From Planctomyces sp. (lineage in GTDB: Bacteria; Planctomycetota; Planctomycetia; Planctomycetales; Planctomycetaceae): a DNA stretch of 37,008 bases. The DNA lies in contig SXKJ01000151.1 of assembly GCA_005778115.1 (NCBI GenBank), positions 1-37,008 on the forward strand, written 5' to 3'. Shown piece by piece: positions 5,359 to 35,753 of the stretch; within the stretch, counting starts at the first letter, position 1, and each line of letters opens with the position of its first letter. The notes under the pieces were generated by a model. That model saw only the letters and a program-made list of their open reading frames with translations, was not told the DNA's origin and did not search any database. The position numbers and the translations under genes were made by a program.

Positions 5359-7027
5359 TCTCCGACAGTCATCACCGGAACAGTCAGGCGAGCGAGGTGG
5401 CGTTAGCCCCCCGGTGTCCTCGCCGCCAGACCGGGGGGCTGACGCCGCCCCGCTCGCCTGTCTTAGTTGGCACCGACTCGCCAAGTGGCTGTTGATCGCT
5501 GGACTGATGGCGTTCTTGTTCTCACGCACGGCGAGTTGCTTTGTTGATCTCGATCTCTGGCATGAACTCGCCCTCGCACGCGAGGTCATGCAATCGGGAC
5601 ACGTCCCGTGGCAGGATCATTTCGCCTACACGCCGAAGCTCGACATTGTCGTGCATCACGAATGGGGCGTGGGAATGATTGCGTACTGGCTGATGCAATC
5701 GAGCGGTTCGTCCGGAATCCTGCTCGCGAAATTCGCGCTGGTTTTCGGATTGGCGAGCGTCTGCTGGCGCGTCGCGAGGAATCGTGGAGCCAGCGTCTTA
5801 GCCGTCGGGATCGTCTGTGGTTTGGCGGTCGTGCTCGGCGACTACAGCTTCGCGACGATCCGAGCGCAGATGTATTCGTACTTGCTGACAGGCCTGCTGC
5901 TGTGGGGCTTTGATCGCGACCGGGCCGGCGATCGCCGCTGGCTGATCGGATTGCTGCTGCTGTTTCCGTTGTGGGTGAATCTGCACGGTGGCTGCTTGGT
6001 CGGAGCAGGATTGCTCGGAGCCTACTGGTTGGAGCAGCTCATTCGTCGTCAGCCGCATTGGCACTTGTTGGCGGTGGGGATGTCGTTGATTCCGCTGGCT
6101 CTGCTGAATCCGTGGGGCTGGCACTATCACGAATATTTGGTCCGCGCGATCACGATGAAGCGACCAAGCATCGCCGAATGGGCTCCGCTTTGGGCCGAAG
6201 GGGAGTTACATCATTTGATGGCGTTCGGTGTGTCGGTCCTGTTGGCATGGCTGATTTTGCGAGAAGGTCGCTGGCGAAAGTTCCCCGGCATCTTGTTGTT
6301 GATCGCGACAGGGCTAGCCGGAGTGAAGAGCAATCGCTTCCTCGCGTTTTACGCGATCGTCTATGCCTGCTACTTGCCGGGGATGCTCAGCCGGATCGAA
6401 CTTGGCAAAGACCTGCGTCGCTGGTGGTGGAAGTATCAGAAGGGATTCGCCGCCGTTTCCGCGATCGCGACGGTCCTGCTGTTCGCGAAGGGGTTCGCCT
6501 CCGAACCGTGGCGACTGCGCGTGCCGAGTCGCCCCACCGCCGGCGCTGGCGAACACGCCATTTATCCGGTCGGTGCAGTCAATTACCTCGCCGAGCACCA
6601 TTTCCAAGGCAACGTCTTCGTGCCGTATGACTGGGGCTCCTACTTGATGTGGAAGCTCGGCCCCGAAGTGCAAATCTCCTTCGACAGCCGCTATGAGGTC
6701 GCATACCCCGCGTGGCGATTGGAAGAGGACCAAGCCTTCTATGAGGCTCGCAACAAGTTTCTGATGGGCTTCCCAAAGACGGTCGGTGACCAATCGGAGT
6801 TTTCTGTATTTGTTGATCATCGAAATGGTTGGCAGGTGGTTCTCTCGAAATACCCGACCGACATCGTGCTTGCTCCGAATCGGCTGCAAGTCGTCGCTGC
6901 GATGAACTCGGCCGACGGCTGGCGGCGAGTCTACCGCGATTCGCAATTCACGATGTTCGCTCGCGACGGCGTGGACCTGCCGACGTTTGAGTCAGACGCC
7001 GATCCGCCGGATGGCGTGTTTCCGTAA
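5348..7027 (+). CDS. Polytopic membrane protein, GT-C-like
   Basis: A protein of about 559 residues with many hydrophobic helices. After the first helix, DLDLWHELALAREVMQSGHV, PWQDHFAYT and HHEWG follow the D-D-W-H-(L)-x-G-x-(I)-x-x-(T)-G-x-x-P-x-x-D-x-F pattern of predicted GT-C-fold envelope proteins, which may be lipid-linked sugar transferases. The substrate is unknown. The GTG start at 5348 overlaps the end of the nuclease gene by 11 bases and has AGGAG (5337-5341) six bases upstream, so the two are probably translationally coupled. A TTG three bases earlier is less well placed. Codons 13-38 lie in a long GC-rich inverted repeat shared with another site in the window, so the mature N terminus has an inserted segment before the first membrane helix. 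Confidence 0.8.
   Translation: MRVDLRQSSPEQSGERGGVSPPVSSPPDRGADAAPLACLSWHRLAKWLLIAGLMAFLFSRTASCFVDLDLWHELALAREVMQSGHVPWQDHFAYTPKLDIVVHHEWGVGMIAYWLMQSSGSSGILLAKFALVFGLASVCWRVARNRGASVLAVGIVCGLAVVLGDYSFATIRAQMYSYLLTGLLLWGFDRDRAGDRRWLIGLLLLFPLWVNLHGGCLVGAGLLGAYWLEQLIRRQPHWHLLAVGMSLIPLALLNPWGWHYHEYLVRAITMKRPSIAEWAPLWAEGELHHLMAFGVSVLLAWLILREGRWRKFPGILLLIATGLAGVKSNRFLAFYAIVYACYLPGMLSRIELGKDLRRWWWKYQKGFAAVSAIATVLLFAKGFASEPWRLRVPSRPTAGAGEHAIYPVGAVNYLAEHHFQGNVFVPYDWGSYLMWKLGPEVQISFDSRYEVAYPAWRLEEDQAFYEARNKFLMGFPKTVGDQSEFSVFVDHRNGWQVVLSKYPTDIVLAPNRLQVVAAMNSADGWRRVYRDSQFTMFARDGVDLPTFESDADPPDGVFP
5385..5460. repeat. GC-rich palindromic element, copy 1 (inside a gene)
   Basis: The arms start CAGGCGAGCGAGGTGGCGTT and end in GCCGCCCCGCTCGCCTG. 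The inner GCCCCCCGGT pairs with ACCGGGGGGC. A second copy with the same arms but a different loop lies at 24548-24625. This copy is inside the first 40 codons of the GT-C-like gene and is read through in frame. Confidence 0.85.
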
Positions 7028-7033
7028 TCAGCA

Positions 7034-7105
7034 GCCGTACCGCGACCGTCAGGGAGCGGCCCTGGTGATCGTGCCAGTCCGCTGCCTGGCGGTCGCGGTA
7101 CGGAT
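7034..7105. repeat. CCGTACCGCGACC palindrome, copy 1
   Basis: CCGTACCGCGACCG pairs with CGGTCGCGGTACGG, with weaker pairing of the inner AGGGAGCGG and CCGCTGCCT. It begins seven bases after the TAA of the GT-C-like gene. A closer-to-perfect copy lies at 31782-31840. It could act as a transcript end or a 3' stabiliser. Confidence 0.85.
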
Positions 7106-10956: not shown

Positions 10957-10968
10957 GATGAATCTCTC

Positions 10969-11019
10969 GTAGAGCAGGCGGCTCGCCTGCCCGGGACACA
11001 GTCGAGCCGCCTGTGCTAC
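10969..11019. repeat. REP-like pair, CAGGCGGCTCGCCTG type
   Basis: GTAG (10969-10972) is followed by AGCAGGCGGCTCGCCTGC, and the other side carries GAGCCGCCTGTG before CTAC (11016-11019). On the minus strand the TAG in this tail is the stop codon of the upstream 198-residue protein. It separates that gene from mch. Single copies of the same core lie at 12797-12817 and 28495-28530. Confidence 0.85.
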
Positions 11020-11612
11020 GGTTTTGTCTTCACGAAGCTAGGCAACTCTTGCGGCTGAAGCCGAAACCGAATGTCCGCCTGACAGCAGTCGCATGGCTTG
11101 ATCTCGTACATCGGGATCGAACAGATATCGCACCAATAATCCATGTACTGTCGAGCCCCCGCGTCATCGAACACGAAGATCATCAGCACCTGCAAATAGG
11201 GAGCGGCCTTCTGCCGCGTCCCCACCAGATCGACGCGTCGATCGCGCAATCGCTCGTCCTGATAAAACGCCCGCCCGCGCCAGTCCGGAACGATCGGGAT
11301 CAATTCACCGGCGTCCGTCTCCAGAACGACCTGCGACTTGAACTCGTCAAACGCTTTGACCCCACGACGTTTCAACGCGTCTTGCAGGTTGACGACCTTT
11401 CCGCTGAAAAGCTCTTTGGGAGAGTCGTCTTTGTCTTTCGCAGGCTGCTTTGAAATGGCCGTTGACTCAGAATTCTTGAGAGGTTCGTCGTTCGCACGCG
11501 GTGCTGATCGACAGATTCCGATCAACGTGAGGCCGACGGACAACAGCGATATCACAACCGCCGGCCGAAACAGCCCGTTCGTTTTCGACAGTTTTGAAGT
11601 TTCTGGCGTCAT
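11016..11612 (-). CDS. Conserved hypothetical membrane-anchored protein with Cys cluster
   Basis: The 198-residue protein has one N-terminal hydrophobic helix (PAVVISLLSVGLTLIGI), a Ser/Lys/Asp-rich linker and a small domain. That domain has VVLETDAGELIPIVPDW and DRRVDLVGTRQ, which could be an OB-like barrel. The C-terminal part contains YWCDICSIPMYEIKPCDCC, a CxxC...CxCC array that might bind a metal. I do not recognise the family beyond its planctomycete look. It starts nine bases after the gene before it, so they are probably co-transcribed. Its stop codon lies in a REP-like element. Confidence 0.65.
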   Translation of the reverse strand: MTPETSKLSKTNGLFRPAVVISLLSVGLTLIGICRSAPRANDEPLKNSESTAISKQPAKDKDDSPKELFSGKVVNLQDALKRRGVKAFDEFKSQVVLETDAGELIPIVPDWRGRAFYQDERLRDRRVDLVGTRQKAAPYLQVLMIFVFDDAGARQYMDYWCDICSIPMYEIKPCDCCQADIRFRLQPQELPSFVKTKP

Positions 11613-24547: not shown

Positions 24548-24625
24548 CAGGCGAGCGGGGCGGCGTCAGCCCCCCGGTCAACGCGCCGCGGAACCGGGGG
24601 CGGGGCTGACGCCGCCCCGCTCGCC
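24548..24625. repeat. GC-rich palindromic element, copy 2
   Basis: The left side CAGGCGAGCGGGGCGGCGTC pairs with GACGCCGCCCCGCTCGCC on the right. Inside, CCCCCCGGT pairs with ACCGGGGG. It shares arms with the copy at 5385-5460. It lies between the kinase-like gene and ribBA, where it may end the first transcript. Confidence 0.85.
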
Positions 24626-27513: not shown

Positions 27514-28492
27514 GGGCGCGGCGAGCGGCGCATTGAGCCTCGCCATCGTCTGCGGCGGAGACGCGGTCAGCGAAGCCGGCGTTCGCGACTTATTCTCGAA
27601 ACCCAACTCTCCATCCTCAAAGACTGTGATGCCGGCTGCGAGCTCTCGGAGTAGCGCCGCCATCAGCAAGCTGGCGGGAAAGCGGAAGCCCAATCAATTG
27701 GTCGCACAGGCAGATGAGCCACTCAATCGGCTCAAGCAACGCGATGCCGAGCAACGCTTCCGCGATGTCCTTTCCGAGGACGAGGAGTCGATTGATTCAG
27801 AAGCCGGCAAGGCGGTTGTCTCTCCCGCGACGGCCTCGCCGAAAGCGAGAGACGAGGAGGCCCGTCCTACGAAACAACTCGCAGAGCCCGCTCAGATTCT
27901 GCCTCCCGAGGAACGGATTGCCGCGCTGCCTCAGGAACAGCCCGGTGAAGGCCCGCTGCCTGAGCCGGTTACCAGTCCCTTGCAGTTGAAACGCATCGGG
28001 GAGATTCAGCCGTTCTACGACTATAAGCCGACAAGCGCGATTGAAGGGGAAGCTTGCTGGGATCTCTGTCCGCGTCCCGACGGAATGCCCTGCAAGCCCG
28101 ACAAAGCCGGCAACATGCCCGAATGCCCGAACGAGTTTCGTCTGAGCGACGCGGCCTATTCCAATCGCATGTACTCCGACTGTCTTTACCAGTGGCGAGC
28201 TGCGGATCAATGGTTCAATCCGCTGTACTTTGAAGACGCCGGTCTCGAACGCTACGGCCATGCTCATCACGAATTGGTCCAGCCGTTCGTCTCCGTCGCC
28301 CGCTTCGGCGTCCAACTGGTCGGTCTGCCGTATCAAATGACGATCGATCCGGTCCGCAAGAAGATGTACAACCTCGGCTACTACCGCGCCGGCGAATGTG
28401 CTCCCAAGAAGTTCTACCGCATTCCGTGGAATACTCACGCCGCGATCAATGAAGCGGCCGTCTGGACGGGGTTGGTCTTCATTTTCCCGTAA
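27449..28492 (+). CDS. Planctomycete exported protein of unknown function
   Basis: About 347 residues. The first 50 have a basic start and a short hydrophobic stretch ([11 protein letters not shown]), so export is likely though the signal is weak. A Pro/Glu/Arg-rich, probably disordered part runs to about residue 175. The conserved C-terminal domain has Cys-containing tracts ([31 protein letters not shown]) and ends with [22 protein letters not shown] do not know a function; the look is of a planctomycete-specific envelope protein. The ATG lies inside guaB with an AGGGAG about 12 bases upstream. A shorter start inside the linker would remove the signal, so I keep the long form. Confidence 0.7.
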
Positions 28493-28494
28493 CT

Positions 28495-28530
28495 GTAGCG
28501 CAGGCGGCTCGCCTGCGACTTCAATTCTAC
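28495..28530. repeat. REP-like copy after a stop codon
   Basis: GTAG (28495-28498) is followed by CGCAGGCGGCTCGCCTGCG, and CTAC (28527-28530) follows. It begins two bases after the TAA of the exported protein gene. The core is identical to that at 10969-11019 and 12797-12817. Confidence 0.75.
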
Positions 28531-28531
28531 G

Positions 28532-28566
28532 AAACGCCCGACGTTGCCGAGACGCCGGGCGTTTTC
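28532..28566 (+). terminator. Rho-independent terminator
   Basis: AAACGCCCG (28532-28540) pairs with CGGGCGTTT (28556-28564), and the right arm runs into a short T-run. It lies 40 bases after the exported protein gene and just behind a REP-like copy. Confidence 0.75.
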
Positions 28567-28661
28567 ATGCGCGATTTCCGCCAACTTCTGCCGTATCGCT
28601 TGCTCGTCCGTCGTGGCTTTGTTCTGTTACTCGCCCCAGAACGAACCTTTCGAGTCACATC

Positions 28662-29078
28662 ATGACCGCCACACCCACACAGACACTTGCCGCCGATCTC
28701 CTCAATCTTCTCGATGCGTTGATTCTCGACGCGGATCGACAAGCAAAGCCGCTGGAGCTTGAGCCGTATCGCAGCCAGCTTTTCGAGTTGTTCGTCATCG
28801 CGGACGCCAGCGGCCTGATGCGAGACGACTCGGTGCCGGATCTCTCACCGGAGGGACTCAGCCGTGAACTCGGAGAGCGATGGGGATTGAAGTCTGCCGC
28901 GCAGTCGTCTCAGACAGCGCTCAACAAGCTCTCGCCGGAGCATCTGTCGAAGATGCGGCTGCTGTGGTCGTTCCTGCGGATGTGGATGGAGTGGCAATAC
29001 GCCTGGAGCCGGTTTGTTGAGTTTCACGATGGGCCGGCAGAGCCTCATTCTGTGACGTCGGCCACCGAGAGTTCGTAG
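28662..29078 (+). CDS. Hypothetical protein (138 aa)
   Basis: Starts at ATG 28662 (MTATPTQTLAADLLNLLDAL). It has no membrane segment. It appears mostly helical, with an acidic middle (DDSVPDLSPEGLSRELGERW) and a Trp/Met-rich part (LLWSFLRMWMEWQYAWSRF). No family is recognised. No clear ribosome site is visible. The stop codon TAG at 29076-29078 is part of a GTAG-headed palindrome. The open frame upstream of the ATG is only the tail of the preceding intergenic stretch. Confidence 0.6.
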   Translation: MTATPTQTLAADLLNLLDALILDADRQAKPLELEPYRSQLFELFVIADASGLMRDDSVPDLSPEGLSRELGERWGLKSAAQSSQTALNKLSPEHLSKMRLLWSFLRMWMEWQYAWSRFVEFHDGPAEPHSVTSATESS

Positions 29079-29131
29079 TCCCGCCTTCAGGCGGTCGATG
29101 TGAGATAAACACCGCCTGAAGGCGGAACTAC
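29075..29131. repeat. REP-like pair with GTAG head and CTAC tail
   Basis: GTAG (29075-29078), CCGCCTTCAGGCGG, a spacer, CCGCCTGAAGGCGG and CTAC (29128-29131) make up 57 bases. It starts in the stop codon of the 138-residue gene and ends four bases before the bshB1 start. Confidence 0.9.
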
Positions 29132-31585: not shown

Positions 31586-31876
31586 GCCTTGATTGTGGTG
31601 CGCCCCGCGAGACTTTCGCAATCGGCAGAGCTTCACATCGCTGCCGGATCGACAGGACGCTCACGGTCGAGTCGAAGCCTAAAAAGCTCGGCCCGGTCAC
31701 AGCGGATTTCGCGGTTGTGGCGACGAGGACGGACGATGTACCTGCTGGAGTCACACACACGAAGAGCGAGCCAAGAGTCAGCCGTACCGCGACCGTTAGG
31801 GAGCGGCCCTATTGGCCGCTCCCTAACGGTCGCGGTACGGATCGGCCACCAAATCTCAGATCTGAAATCTCAAATC
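31586..31876. other. Divergent intergenic region
   Basis: Between the isomerase and the AsmA-like gene. It holds the palindrome at 31782-31840. Just before the AsmA-like start comes an AT-richer stretch, AAATCTCAGATCTGAAATCT, that is itself partly self-complementary. No ribosome site precedes ATG 31877. Nothing else was recognised. Confidence 0.5.
31782..31840. repeat. CCGTACCGCGACC palindrome, copy 2 (perfect)
   Basis: A perfect 27-base stem (outer CCGTACCGCGACC with GGTCGCGGTACGG, inner GGGAGCGGCC with GGCCGCTCCC) encloses a five-base loop. The other copy is at 7034-7105. This one lies about 35 bases before the AsmA-like gene start. Confidence 0.95.
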
Positions 31877-34800
31877 ATGGCTTCAACCAGCCCACCATCG
31901 GCCAATCGCCTCGAACCATTAGGGACACCGCGGCGTCGTTGGCGCTGGATCGGGTTGTTTCTCATCGGCTTAATCGCGGGCGGAGCTTGGTTTGCTCCGG
32001 AGATTGTTTCGCAAACGAGCCTGCGGCACAGCGTCGCGAGCTGGGCCACACGCGACCTGCCACTGCGAGTCGAGTTGGGACCGACCTCGTTGGGCTGGAT
32101 GAAACCGGTCGTATTGCGCGAGCTGCGAGTCACCGATGCCAATGGACAAGCATTGCTGGAAGTGAAAGAGCTCCGCAGCGAGCGGAAGTTGTGGCAGTTG
32201 GCGACTCAACACGCGGATCTTGGTCGATTCACGTTGCATGATCCGGCGGGCCATGTCGTTCTACGAGCGGATGGCTCGAACGTCGAGGATGTGCTGGCGG
32301 TGTTGCTCAGTGGTTCGACGACGGAGCCGGCTCCCGCGTTCCGCGTTGAGATCGTGAATGCTCGCGTCGAGTTTGAGCATCCGGCATCGAAACGAAAGTC
32401 AGCCATTGAGTCGCTCGATTTGAAGGTGTCGAGCGGTGTGACGGGGATCGAATTGGTCGTGGCCGAGATGCCGTCGAAGACTGCGGCGGTGTCTGCCGAA
32501 GCCGGTCGCTTCGCGGCGTACTTTGGGAAGCCGATTAATCCATCTGAGGGCGCGGACGATTCCGTCGCGAATACCGAGGGGACGCGGCAGTTGCTGCTGA
32601 GAGCGAAGGACTGGCGACTGGATTGGCTCAATCCGATCCTGGCGAGATGGCACCCGCTGGGGGAATTGTCCGGAGTGCTGACTACGGACTGGCAAGCAAA
32701 CGCGGGACGCGTGAAGGGTGAGCTTCGATTGCAGGATCTCTGCCTCTCTGGGTTGAACGGCATGGGGACGGATCGGTTGCGATTGAACGAGACCAGTCTG
32801 CGTGGCAACGTCGCGACGAAAGGGGAGCGACTGATTGTCGAAGAGGCGGAATTGCTCACGGAAGTTGGCACGTTGACGGCATCCGGCGATTTCCCTCTGG
32901 GAGGCTGGTCGTTCGCATCTGGAGAGGAAGCGTTGCGACAGATCGGACAGGAAACATTTCGCGTGGATGGCGACATCGATCTCGCGAAGCTGGCAGCGTT
33001 CCTGCCACAGAAGTTGGCAGTGCGTGAAGGGACGCGAATCGACGGCGGTTCGATCCGGGTCGCGTTGGCCTCTCAGCCGCGGAATGGCTCACCTGCATTT
33101 CAAGGAAAGGTGGAGGTGGCTCGGCTGTCGGCCGTTGCGGATGGTCGGCGAATCGAATGGGACGTTCCGCTGGAAGCCCTGCTGACCGTGCATCGCGACG
33201 GCGAGCAATTCGTCTTCGATCGACTGACCTGCCGTTCCGACTTCCTGCAAGCGGACGCCAAGGGGACGCTGACAGATGCCACGTTTCAGGCACGCGCCGA
33301 TCTTGATCGGCTGCATCGCAACCTCAGTCGATTCTTCGATTGGGGACTGGTTCGTTTGAGCGGCCAGTTAGCAGCGAGCGGTCAGATTCAGCGTCAGGAC
33401 GGTGGCGAACTGGATTTGCGTGCGAAGGGAGATCTCACAAACTTTGAACTGCAACGTCGCGGCGAGTCGCCGTGGCGTGAACAGCGGCTTGAGATCGTCG
33501 CCGCATCTTCGGCGAAAATCTCTGAAACTCAGCAGTTGCGATCCGTTGAGTCAGCATCACTGCAGCTAGTCAGCGGTGAGGATCGGCTGGACGTGAAATT
33601 GACCGAGCCAATGGATTGGAAGTCGAACGCGCGATGGCGAGCTGTCGCGGATGTGGTCGGAGGTCTCGATTCGTGGCAAGCTCGGCTGCGTCCGGTGATG
33701 ACCATCGACGGCTGGCAGACTGCGGGGCAACTCGCGGCCCACGCGGACGTCGAGGCGAACCAACAAGCGATCGACGTCGCAAAACTGACGATCACGATCA
33801 ATGAGCTGCAAGCTCGCGGCCCAGAGTGGCTGATCCAAGAGTCGAAGCTGTCCCTCGAAACGGCGGGACACTGGGAGATGGCGACGAGTCGCTGGGCGGC
33901 TCCGAAAACGATCCTCACCGGGACCAGCGCGGCCGCGACGGTCAGCAATCTCGATTGGTCGCTGGCCGGTGCAGGCGGTGACGCTCGGTTTCGAGTGCAT
34001 CTTGGCAACGTCTCACGCTGGAAAGTTCAGGCTCAGCAGCAGCCGGGCTATTTCGTGTCCGGTGAAGCGGCCGGCTCGCTGCAACTGCAACAAAGAGGTA
34101 CGCGAACTCAGGCAATTCTCGATTCGCGAATTGAGAAATTCGTCGTGGCGGACGCTGCCAGCGTCCGTCCCCAAAAAACCGACGCTGGCAGCGTCGGCCA
34201 CGGCAGCGAAATCCTCTGGCTAGAACCAGAGATGAAGCTGGCAACACAAGCTGTGTTCGACTCGGCCAAGCAATCACTGACGCTCAGTGGCACGAAGCTG
34301 ACTGCCGACGGACTGGAAGTGAATCTCGCGGGACGTCTCGACGAGCTGGCCGAGACGCCGGTGGTCAATGTCACTGGCGAACTCGCGTATGATTGGGAAA
34401 GGTTGACTCAACGATTGGGTGAATCGCTGCGACAGAACGTGCAACTCGCCGGACAAGAGCGTCGCAAGTTCTCACTTCGCGGTCGGCTTTCGTCGCTGGA
34501 TGTCGAAGAATCAAAGACGACACTCGGCGCGGGTCTCCCGACCTCGCCCCGAGCAAGCCAGTTGTCGAGTATCTCGCGAACGTCGTCGCCATCCAATTCC
34601 GCGTTGACCGCGCTGACCGGCGAAGCGGGACTCGGATGGCAAACGGCAAAACTCTACGGGTTGTCGGCCGGGGCTGGTGACCTGTCGTGCAAACTCAACG
34701 AGGGTGTCGGCACGCTCATACTGCGCGACGTTCCGATCAACGAGGGGACGCTGCGGCTGAACTCGCAGTTGCGGTTAGATCGCACCCCCGCGCTGATCGT

Positions 34801-35518
34801 GTTGCAATCCGAACGAGTCATCGACAACGTCCGGCTGTCGCCGGAACTGTGCGCGGGCTGGTTACGGTTCGTGGCACCGCTCATGGCAAATGCGACTCGT
34901 GCGGAAGGCCGATTTTCGATGGTGCTCGCAAAGGGAGCGTTGCCCGTCAGCGATCCTGCGACCGGCGAGGTTTTCGGGCAACTCGCGATTCACGCGGCGC
35001 AAGTCAGCCCCGGCCCGTTCATGGACCAAATCCTCGCAGTCGTGGATCGGATCAAAGCACTGACGAAATCACGCTCGCTGAAACCGGCCGACCTGCTGTC
35101 TCTGGCCGAGCAATCCGTCTCGCCAGCCGGTGGGCGCGAGCGAGTCTTGGTCACTCTGCCGGAACAACAAGTCCCCGTTCACCTGCTCAACGGCCGTGTC
35201 CATCACGACGGTCTGACGCTCGTCACGAAAGAGGCAACGCTGAAGACACGCGGTTCGGTGGGGCTCGATGAGTCGTTGGATTTGATTGTCGATGTCCCCG
35301 TTCGCGACGAATGGGTTGCTCAAAACAAACAACTCGCGAGCCTGCGCGGTAAATCGCTGAGCATCCCTGTCCGCGGCTCATTGACGGCCCCGCAACTCGA
35401 TCTGCGGGTTTTCGAGATCTTCGCTCGCGAAGCGTTCACTGCACCGGTTGAGAACTTGCTGGAGAACGAACTCCAGAAGGGACTGAACCGGTTGCTGCCG
35501 GGGAAGAAGAAGCCGTGA
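31877..35518 (+). CDS. AsmA/TamB-like envelope protein
   Basis: About 1213 residues. One N-terminal transmembrane helix (WIGLFLIGLIAGGAWFAP, near 25-42) is followed by a very long beta-rich body with repeats of the kind F.v.G.l.l..., as in AsmA and TamB proteins, which bridge membranes and move lipids or assist outer membrane assembly. Examples are LPLRVELGPTSLGWMKPVVL and GSVGLDESLDLIVDVPV near the C terminus. The end is SIPVRGSLTAPQLDLRVFEI, also typical. At residues 757-775 a 57-base palindromic element is read in frame. No ribosome site is obvious at ATG 31877. Family level is sound; the exact role is not known. Confidence 0.82.
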   Translation: MASTSPPSANRLEPLGTPRRRWRWIGLFLIGLIAGGAWFAPEIVSQTSLRHSVASWATRDLPLRVELGPTSLGWMKPVVLRELRVTDANGQALLEVKELRSERKLWQLATQHADLGRFTLHDPAGHVVLRADGSNVEDVLAVLLSGSTTEPAPAFRVEIVNARVEFEHPASKRKSAIESLDLKVSSGVTGIELVVAEMPSKTAAVSAEAGRFAAYFGKPINPSEGADDSVANTEGTRQLLLRAKDWRLDWLNPILARWHPLGELSGVLTTDWQANAGRVKGELRLQDLCLSGLNGMGTDRLRLNETSLRGNVATKGERLIVEEAELLTEVGTLTASGDFPLGGWSFASGEEALRQIGQETFRVDGDIDLAKLAAFLPQKLAVREGTRIDGGSIRVALASQPRNGSPAFQGKVEVARLSAVADGRRIEWDVPLEALLTVHRDGEQFVFDRLTCRSDFLQADAKGTLTDATFQARADLDRLHRNLSRFFDWGLVRLSGQLAASGQIQRQDGGELDLRAKGDLTNFELQRRGESPWREQRLEIVAASSAKISETQQLRSVESASLQLVSGEDRLDVKLTEPMDWKSNARWRAVADVVGGLDSWQARLRPVMTIDGWQTAGQLAAHADVEANQQAIDVAKLTITINELQARGPEWLIQESKLSLETAGHWEMATSRWAAPKTILTGTSAAATVSNLDWSLAGAGGDARFRVHLGNVSRWKVQAQQQPGYFVSGEAAGSLQLQQRGTRTQAILDSRIEKFVVADAASVRPQKTDAGSVGHGSEILWLEPEMKLATQAVFDSAKQSLTLSGTKLTADGLEVNLAGRLDELAETPVVNVTGELAYDWERLTQRLGESLRQNVQLAGQERRKFSLRGRLSSLDVEESKTTLGAGLPTSPRASQLSSISRTSSPSNSALTALTGEAGLGWQTAKLYGLSAGAGDLSCKLNEGVGTLILRDVPINEGTLRLNSQLRLDRTPALIVLQSERVIDNVRLSPELCAGWLRFVAPLMANATRAEGRFSMVLAKGALPVSDPATGEVFGQLAIHAAQVSPGPFMDQILAVVDRIKALTKSRSLKPADLLSLAEQSVSPAGGRERVLVTLPEQQVPVHLLNGRVHHDGLTLVTKEATLKTRGSVGLDESLDLIVDVPVRDEWVAQNKQLASLRGKSLSIPVRGSLTAPQLDLRVFEIFAREAFTAPVENLLENELQKGLNRLLPGKKKP
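34145..34201. repeat. REP-like pair inside the AsmA-like gene
   Basis: GTGG (34145-34148), GGACGCTGCCAGCGTCC, an A-rich spacer, GACGCTGGCAGCGTC and CCAC (34198-34201) make up 57 bases or 19 codons. The gene stays in frame through it. Length and layout equal those of the element at 29075-29131. Confidence 0.85.
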
Positions 35519-35691
35519 GGAAGGGGAATTGGTGATTGATGATTGGCTATTGGCGATTGATTATTTCTGACTTCCAAATCATCAATCGCCAATAGCCAAT
35601 GACCAATCCTCAATCCATTGTTCTCCCTTCCGACCGCCGCTTGACTTCTTTAGGGGCGTCCCTCAAAACACGTTCCGTCGCCGGGACGCGA
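35519..35691. repeat. AT-rich inverted repeat upstream of nuoA
   Basis: ATTGGCTATTGGCGATTGAT (35542-35561) pairs perfectly with 35581-35600, around a 19-base spacer. Imperfect pairing continues outside (GGTGATTGATG with CCAATGACCAAT). This sequence is AT-richer than its neighbours. It follows the AsmA-like stop by about 24 bases. Confidence 0.85.
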
Positions 35692-35753
35692 GCAAAGTCG
35701 ACGAGTCACTCCGTGGCTCGAATTCGAGTCACGGAGTGACTCGTCGACTTTGC
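35692..35753. repeat. Near-perfect 62-base palindrome before nuoA
   Basis: A perfect 24-base stem (35692-35715 with 35730-35753, ends GCAAAGTCGACGAG and CTCGTCGACTTTGC) encloses CTCGAATTCGAG, which is itself palindromic. It ends 43 bases before the nuoA start, so it would be in the leader of the complex I message or at the end of the upstream one. Confidence 0.95.

Follow-up and report, generated by a model that had tools for sequence, protein, structure and literature searches.

A paired REP element lies in frame within an AsmA-like gene

The window (the whole 37,008-nucleotide stretch analysed here, from contig SXKJ01000151.1 of Planctomyces sp.) contains the following features, with positions counted from its first letter.

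31877 to 35518, plus strand: host gene, encoding a DUF748/AsmA-like protein; start inferred from conservation (mechanical open reading frame [ORF], 31589 to 35518)
34145 to 34201, plus strand: family A REPIN; inverted REP pair tagged GTGG and CCAC; 19 in-frame codons
34145 to 34167, plus strand: left REP arm, GTGGCGGACGCTGCCAGCGTCCG; matches the family pattern with 0 mismatches
34168 to 34178, plus strand: spacer between the arms, 11 nt; spacers vary from copy to copy
34179 to 34201, minus strand: right REP arm, GTGGCCGACGCTGCCAGCGTCGG as read on that strand; matches the family pattern with 0 mismatches
29075 to 29131, no strand assigned: REPIN of family B (GTAGTYCCGCCTTCAGGCGG), used for comparison; between two genes

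The host ORF comprises 1309 codons, and because conservation begins near the ATG at 31877, the protein is probably ~1213 residues long with the insert at residues 757 to 775, the position proposed in an earlier reading of the letters alone (the sequence-only reading) and correct if translation begins at that ATG. A Pfam match to DUF748 reaches 37.7 bits, under its cut-off of 50, and an NCBIfam match to GspN is also sub-threshold; the label AsmA-like, given by the same reading, would fit that superfamily. The AlphaFold model of the translation of window positions 33500 to 34801 (8 rows) had a mean pLDDT of 29.9 and was left unused; judging by its hypervariable surroundings, the insert loop presumably lies on the protein surface.

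The element consists of GTGGCGGACGCTGCCAGCGTCCG TCCCCAAAAAA CCGACGCTGGCAGCGTCGGCCAC (57 nt), i.e., two 23-nt arms inverted around the spacer and bounded by GTGG and CCAC, and counts among the window's long close inverted repeats. It reads as 19 codons (VADAASVRPQKTDAGSVGH) with no stop, and the host ORF continues past it, exactly as the sequence-only reading had described its coordinates, ends, stop-free codons and read-through. Folding of the 59 nt at 34144 to 34202 as single-stranded DNA yielded one long hairpin of -29.4 kcal/mol (shuffle mean, -11.27; z = -9.4), which 0 of 200 shuffles equalled. The window element thus combines two inverted REPs able to form one hairpin with a GTAG-class tag, GTGG at both of its feet and GTGG or GTAG in the listed family A copies. 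A plasmid collection searched with positions 34100 to 34260 gave no match.

Family A is dispersed in the genome

The 15-nt arm core GACGCTGCCAGCGTC occurs 33 times in the 7.43-Mb genome of the window (G000) versus 0 control matches, and so is not a chance sequence. A degenerate 23-nt pattern with up to 3 mismatches gave 187 genome matches, in which a palindrome can match on both strands, versus 20 control matches; among the matches listed, we compiled 49 family A places. The unit is therefore dispersed and of high copy number, as is characteristic of REPINs, contrary to the single genomic occurrence that the sequence-only reading had named as telling against it.

Family A elements occur mostly in pairs (38/47 in G000), which are 44 to 81 nt long and most commonly 48 nt. 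Their arms vary by paired changes that keep the palindrome (e.g., GACGC..GCGTC to GATGC..GCATC), and their spacers are unrelated. C is the base outside the tag in 82/85 outward flanks in G000 and 45/46 in the congener G002, indicating that the unit sits as C^GTRG...CYAC^G. Neither the family A consensus nor the window copy has a stop in any of the six frames; a GTAG tag creates a stop in one frame.

One could ask whether this is an ordinary protein-coding repeat (VADAAS...DAGSVGH) that is palindromic in DNA only by appearance, since 17 of the 25 in-ORF copies among the matches listed are read in the phase VADAAS...GH. However, about half of the copies are extragenic, others use two other frames (SWPTLPAS and RGGR), and the arm changes are paired and palindrome-keeping, so that this reading is already refuted and retains practically no probability.

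Four extragenic 72-nt copies (L001, L014, L103 and L077) have similar spacers and shared neighbouring sequence, with GTAGTTCCAAGTTC preceding the tag in three of them; perhaps these copies are part of a longer repeated unit.

Many family A copies reside in apparently working genes

Coding flanks were judged by a codon-usage score, for which 12 long window ORFs served as training set, and an element was counted as lying in an ORF when coding sequence was present on both sides and no stop fell within the element. By this rule, 25 of the 49 family A places in G000 (among the matches listed) are inside coding ORFs. Pfam matches were counted at E ≤ 1e-5, the window ORF being included with its sub-threshold DUF748 match; among the matches listed, 21 of the 25 ORFs carry a Pfam match, and 17 of 25 have the element inside a Pfam match or flanked by Pfam matches of the same frame. 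The latter comprise an RNB/S1 protein (L100), an amidase (L009), a molybdopterin oxidoreductase (L026), a P-type ATPase (L029), an ABC-F type protein (L088), Lhr helicase (L090), an alpha-2-macroglobulin (A2M; L093), SMC (L007), MlrC (L019), PheT (L020), and seven planctomycete proteins of DUF1549/1553/1592 type (L003, L016, L027, L078, L082, L083 and L097); the names PheT, Lhr and ABC-F are our interpretation of the Pfam matches. In-gene landings in apparently working genes are common in this genome, which does not support the view of the sequence-only reading that gene residence is exceptional: about half of family A sits in ORFs here.

In-gene pairs in G000 are unevenly distributed over the three phases (14, 1 and 5 of 20; p = 0.0013). 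Owing to this phase preference and the stop-free consensus, an inserted copy usually costs only a polar loop of ~16 to 27 residues. A length that is a multiple of three was considered as a sign of coding selection and rejected, as it was found in 14/20 in-gene versus 12/18 extragenic pairs (G000).

Three loci among the 49 places show a different picture. In L091 a stop lies within the family A element and in L085 the frame shifts across it, both possible gene disruptions. In a protein kinase ORF (L102:192-866, minus strand), the element lies between KPSNLL and the DLG motif and a stop follows one codon later; this kinase is possibly a broken gene or a sequence error.

Family A shows no gene avoidance in two genomes

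For comparison with random placement, elements <250 nt from a locus end were excluded, and 1500 placements of 48 nt in the same loci served as the control. In G000, 24/47 family A elements were in ORFs (random placement, 55%), and likewise 16/25 in G002 (60%), for which the sample was 30 loci covering every 0-mismatch place out of 69 matches. In contrast, the same REP consensus in G063, which belongs to another genus, was in ORFs in only 1/27 cases (random placement, 48%; 247 + 221 matches, with 20 stretches sampled from the listed 0-mismatch places). The G000-trained score is usable in G063, because 48% of random places there were called coding. Fisher p values were 2.2e-5 for G000 versus G063 and 2.9e-6 for G002 versus G063. 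Family A thus shows no gene avoidance in G000 and G002, and departs in G000 from the extragenic location that classically defines REPs (24/47 versus 1/27 in G063). We limit this claim to these two genomes, because the handful of loci from other congeners (2/8 sampled elements in ORFs) is too small to extend it. Outside the genus, G063 excepted, 4/16 elements were in ORFs; all four were single arms that passed the mismatch limit and resemble chance hits in ordinary genes.

REPs were named for their extragenic location, and here a single consensus keeps to extragenic sites in one planctomycete genus and is gene-indifferent in another. What excludes REPs from genes (selection, target choice or element make-up being candidate factors) therefore becomes testable by comparison.

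Y1 transposase loci

The genome contains 16 Y1 matches. Across 46 Y1 loci (16 of its own and 30 of the 61 in six relatives; genome 94% complete), no Y1 gene was directly flanked by a family A REP; one own locus has a family A REP 1.2 kb away, within another ORF. According to PMC3733652, REP-flanked RAYT units of this kind may be missing. Locus L031 (G000:C482) has a Y1 transposase gene with inverted REPs of another family, GTAGCCCCAGGCTTYAGCCTGGGG, on both sides, and is a classical REP-RAYT unit. Both L031 and L042 were rejected as family A transposase loci, being flanked by GTAGCCCCAGGCTTYAGCCTGGGG and GTAGGTCAGCC-type hairpins, respectively.

Orthologues with filled and empty sites

An AsmA-like match was found in 48 of the 59 genomes searched, the window's own included. 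The relatives of the window are MAG contigs labelled by their depositors as Planctomyces sp., Planctomycetota or, in two cases, Candidatus Kuenenia; from the isolate names, we read the host as a lake planctomycete. The alignment has 11 rows (the window, nine congeners and G012 from another genus), the fragments from G005 and G011 being left out. Of the 10 orthologues aligned with the window, only that of G002 carries the element, differing at 4/57 nt, with the flanking DNA 80 to 84% identical. G009 has a 48-nt element there that is related but decayed and matches the consensus at 33/48 positions (best of 20,000 codon shuffles, 28). The other eight are without it: in G010, G006, G003, G004 and G007 its position is taken by 10 codons (such as IATPTDRTQS), and the more distant G001, G008 and G012 also lack it. 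The net gain is thus 9 codons rather than 19, i.e., ~30 nt (~10 ancestral codons) disappeared upon insertion or later. Accordingly, the REP-type in-frame insertion proposed from the letters alone is borne out by orthologues and dispersal, whereas a plain addition of 19 residues is not; nor did the orthologues show the same residues encoded by unrelated codons, which that reading had named as an outcome against it.

The gene tree, computed with the element columns excluded, pairs G000 with G002 as sister species (SH-aLRT 92) and places G010 and G004 next to this pair; it also joins G009 and G007 as sisters, and of these two only G009 bears the 48-nt relative of the element. Both two gains at one site and one gain followed by allele replacement fit the G009 element.

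Filled and empty orthologues were found for four genes; the AsmA-like, ABC-F, A2M and DUF1592-type orthologues are the only ones that come from a protein search. In the ABC-F type gene (10 rows), G000, G010, G004, G009, G005 and G002 have the element and G007, G011, G003 and G001 lack it. For the L097 protein (10 rows), G000 and G004 have the element and G010 has other sequence there. At the L093 site of the A2M protein (L105 to L115), G000 has family A, G001 and G008 have a divergent element with two hairpins, G011, G009, G002 and G010 have family C-like sequence, and G006, G007, G004 and G003 have other sequence.

Origin of the AsmA-like insert

The best explanation overall, to which we assign a probability of roughly 0.85, is that the window element belongs to a dispersed, non-autonomous REPIN family, inserted into the AsmA-like gene, survived and was inherited as coding sequence. 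It draws on what was observed directly, i.e., the family, its copy number, its in-frame residence in many genes, its presence and absence among orthologues, and its fixed borders. The copy would have entered a variable loop, most simply in the common ancestor of G000 and G002, and ~10 ancestral codons would have been lost at or after entry. The host gene could have survived because the element is stop-free in six frames, is usually a multiple of three in length and encodes small, mostly polar residues; afterwards the element would have been passed on like any other coding sequence. The mover was most likely a single-strand transposase of the Y1 (RAYT/TnpA-REP) type acting in trans, and family A inserts would be nearly neutral. 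Several observations weigh against this explanation: (i) the insertion is unclean, with 57 nt in versus ~30 nt out, which plain transposition leaves unexplained; (ii) the 48-nt relative at the same codon in G009, with its sister G007 lacking one, calls for a second event or allele replacement; and (iii) no family A-flanked Y1 gene was seen at the 46 loci, and only 2/8 congener elements are in ORFs.

Instead of transposing into an empty site, the element may have come from another REPIN by recombination or template switching, i.e., by gene conversion of a variable or REPIN-bearing loop. Such a route is consistent with the gain of 9 instead of 19 codons, with the related element of another length in G009, with the occupation of one A2M loop by different palindrome families in different species, and with the lack of a cognate transposase at the Y1 loci. 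However, the constancy of the C^G borders at unrelated sites is in keeping with a defined mobile unit, and conversion needs homology at the receiving site, where five congeners keep conserved ancestral sequence without a REP. We consider this route unlikely, albeit one that deserves real weight.

The sequence-only reading had called the insert domesticated, which would mean that its 19 residues are now of use to the host protein and maintained by selection. No stop interrupts the element in G000 or G002, it has changed at few positions relative to its flanks, and in the ABC-F gene three orthologues obtained from the protein search differ at 0 to 1 of 48 nt versus 14 to 18% of flanking third codon positions. 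Nonetheless, recent spread or conversion among copies explains such slow change equally well, decay is seen in the ABC-F copies of G009 and G005, and the host proteins are unrelated. Since the arm pattern itself had served to find most G002 copies, we do not claim slow arm change as selection; our analysis gave no sign of a selected function for the 19 residues, and domestication appears improbable.

Relation to known in-frame palindromes

Family A extends the in-frame intragenic REPs already known, for which the classic case is the RPEs of Rickettsia, and the notable point is its lack of gene avoidance. According to PMC3733652, in-frame intragenic REPs are most abundant in Rickettsia conorii and in the verrucomicrobium Opitutus terrae, those of the latter being of GTAG type; Planctomycetes are listed there among the GTAG-repeat hosts, with no planctomycete gene named in the part that deals with them. 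Like the GTAG-class REPs of Di Nocera et al. 2013 (PMC3733652), family A consists of palindromes with a GTAG-type tag that are often inverted dimers and add in-frame residues to ORFs (20 to 30 for the REPs of that study). Unlike those described there, it has another sequence, mostly a GTGG tag and the border C^GTRG, and to that account it adds residence of about half of the copies in genes, without avoidance relative to random placement, and filled and empty orthologues.

With the REPINs associated with RAYT/TnpA-REP (PMC6006769, PMC8049555, PMC8266576), family A shares two inverted REPs, one long hairpin and dispersal in the genome; it differs from the RAYT-linked REPINs presented in PMC6006769 in its frequency in genes and in having no REP-flanked RAYT at the 46 Y1 loci. 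Class 3 Y1 proteins occur chiefly in Planctomycetes, Acidobacteria and Proteobacteria (PMC6006769).

RPEs occur in Rickettsia genes and are ~150 bp long (PMC10969869; Ogata 2000 and 2002 are cited for them in PMC10969869 and PMC3733652). Like them (PMC10969869, PMC3733652), family A comprises mobile palindromes lying in frame in unrelated genes and apparently translated, but its length (44 to 81 nt versus ~150 bp; PMC10969869) and GTRG tag set it apart; it acts like an RPE and we do not class it as one. In the literature searched, nothing closer was found on intragenic REPs in planctomycetes. Family A also provides a free-living counterpart to the Rickettsia protein-coding palindromes, and twelve congeners allow single insertions to be dated.

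Other palindrome families

The family B REPIN at 29075 to 29131 is also 57 nt long, an equality to which the sequence-only reading had drawn attention. It has a different REP sequence, GTAGTCCCGCCTTCAGGCGG, and belongs to another family, and family A pairs span 44 to 81 nt; the equal length is therefore an uninformative coincidence. This REPIN is flanked by two same-strand genes: ORF 28398 to 29078 takes its stop codon from the TAG within the GTAG tag, and a BshB1-type deacetylase ORF begins 5 bases past it.

Two families unrelated to A also enter ORFs: family B in 9/24 cases (G000) and family C (AARCCGGACGCTAGCGCRTTCCGGCT), which has 77 matches in G000 and is found in 12/12 genomes of the genus, in 8/25 cases (sample of 24 loci across the genus). 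The family B consensus has stops in four frames. Conceivably, the unrelated families A, B and C form a standing source of new protein loops in this genus that settles in genes as often as elsewhere and reuses loops, with the near stop-free make-up being evolved harmlessness; we regard this idea as doubtful and put it forward tentatively.

Near residue 604 of the window ORF, the AsmA-like genes of G004 (L053) and G007 (L054) have a 26-codon in-frame insert, FASDHQPQGASPGSEPDASAFRLMKH, which contains a family C palindrome and is absent from the other aligned AsmA-like orthologues.

Further long inverted repeats indicate that the window itself holds several palindrome families. Those at 31782 to 31840 and 7035 to 7103 share sequence, as do those at 5382 to 5463 and 24550 to 24625; the repeat at 10968 to 11020 has GTAG and CTAC ends, and two more lie at 35528 to 35614 and 35692 to 35753.
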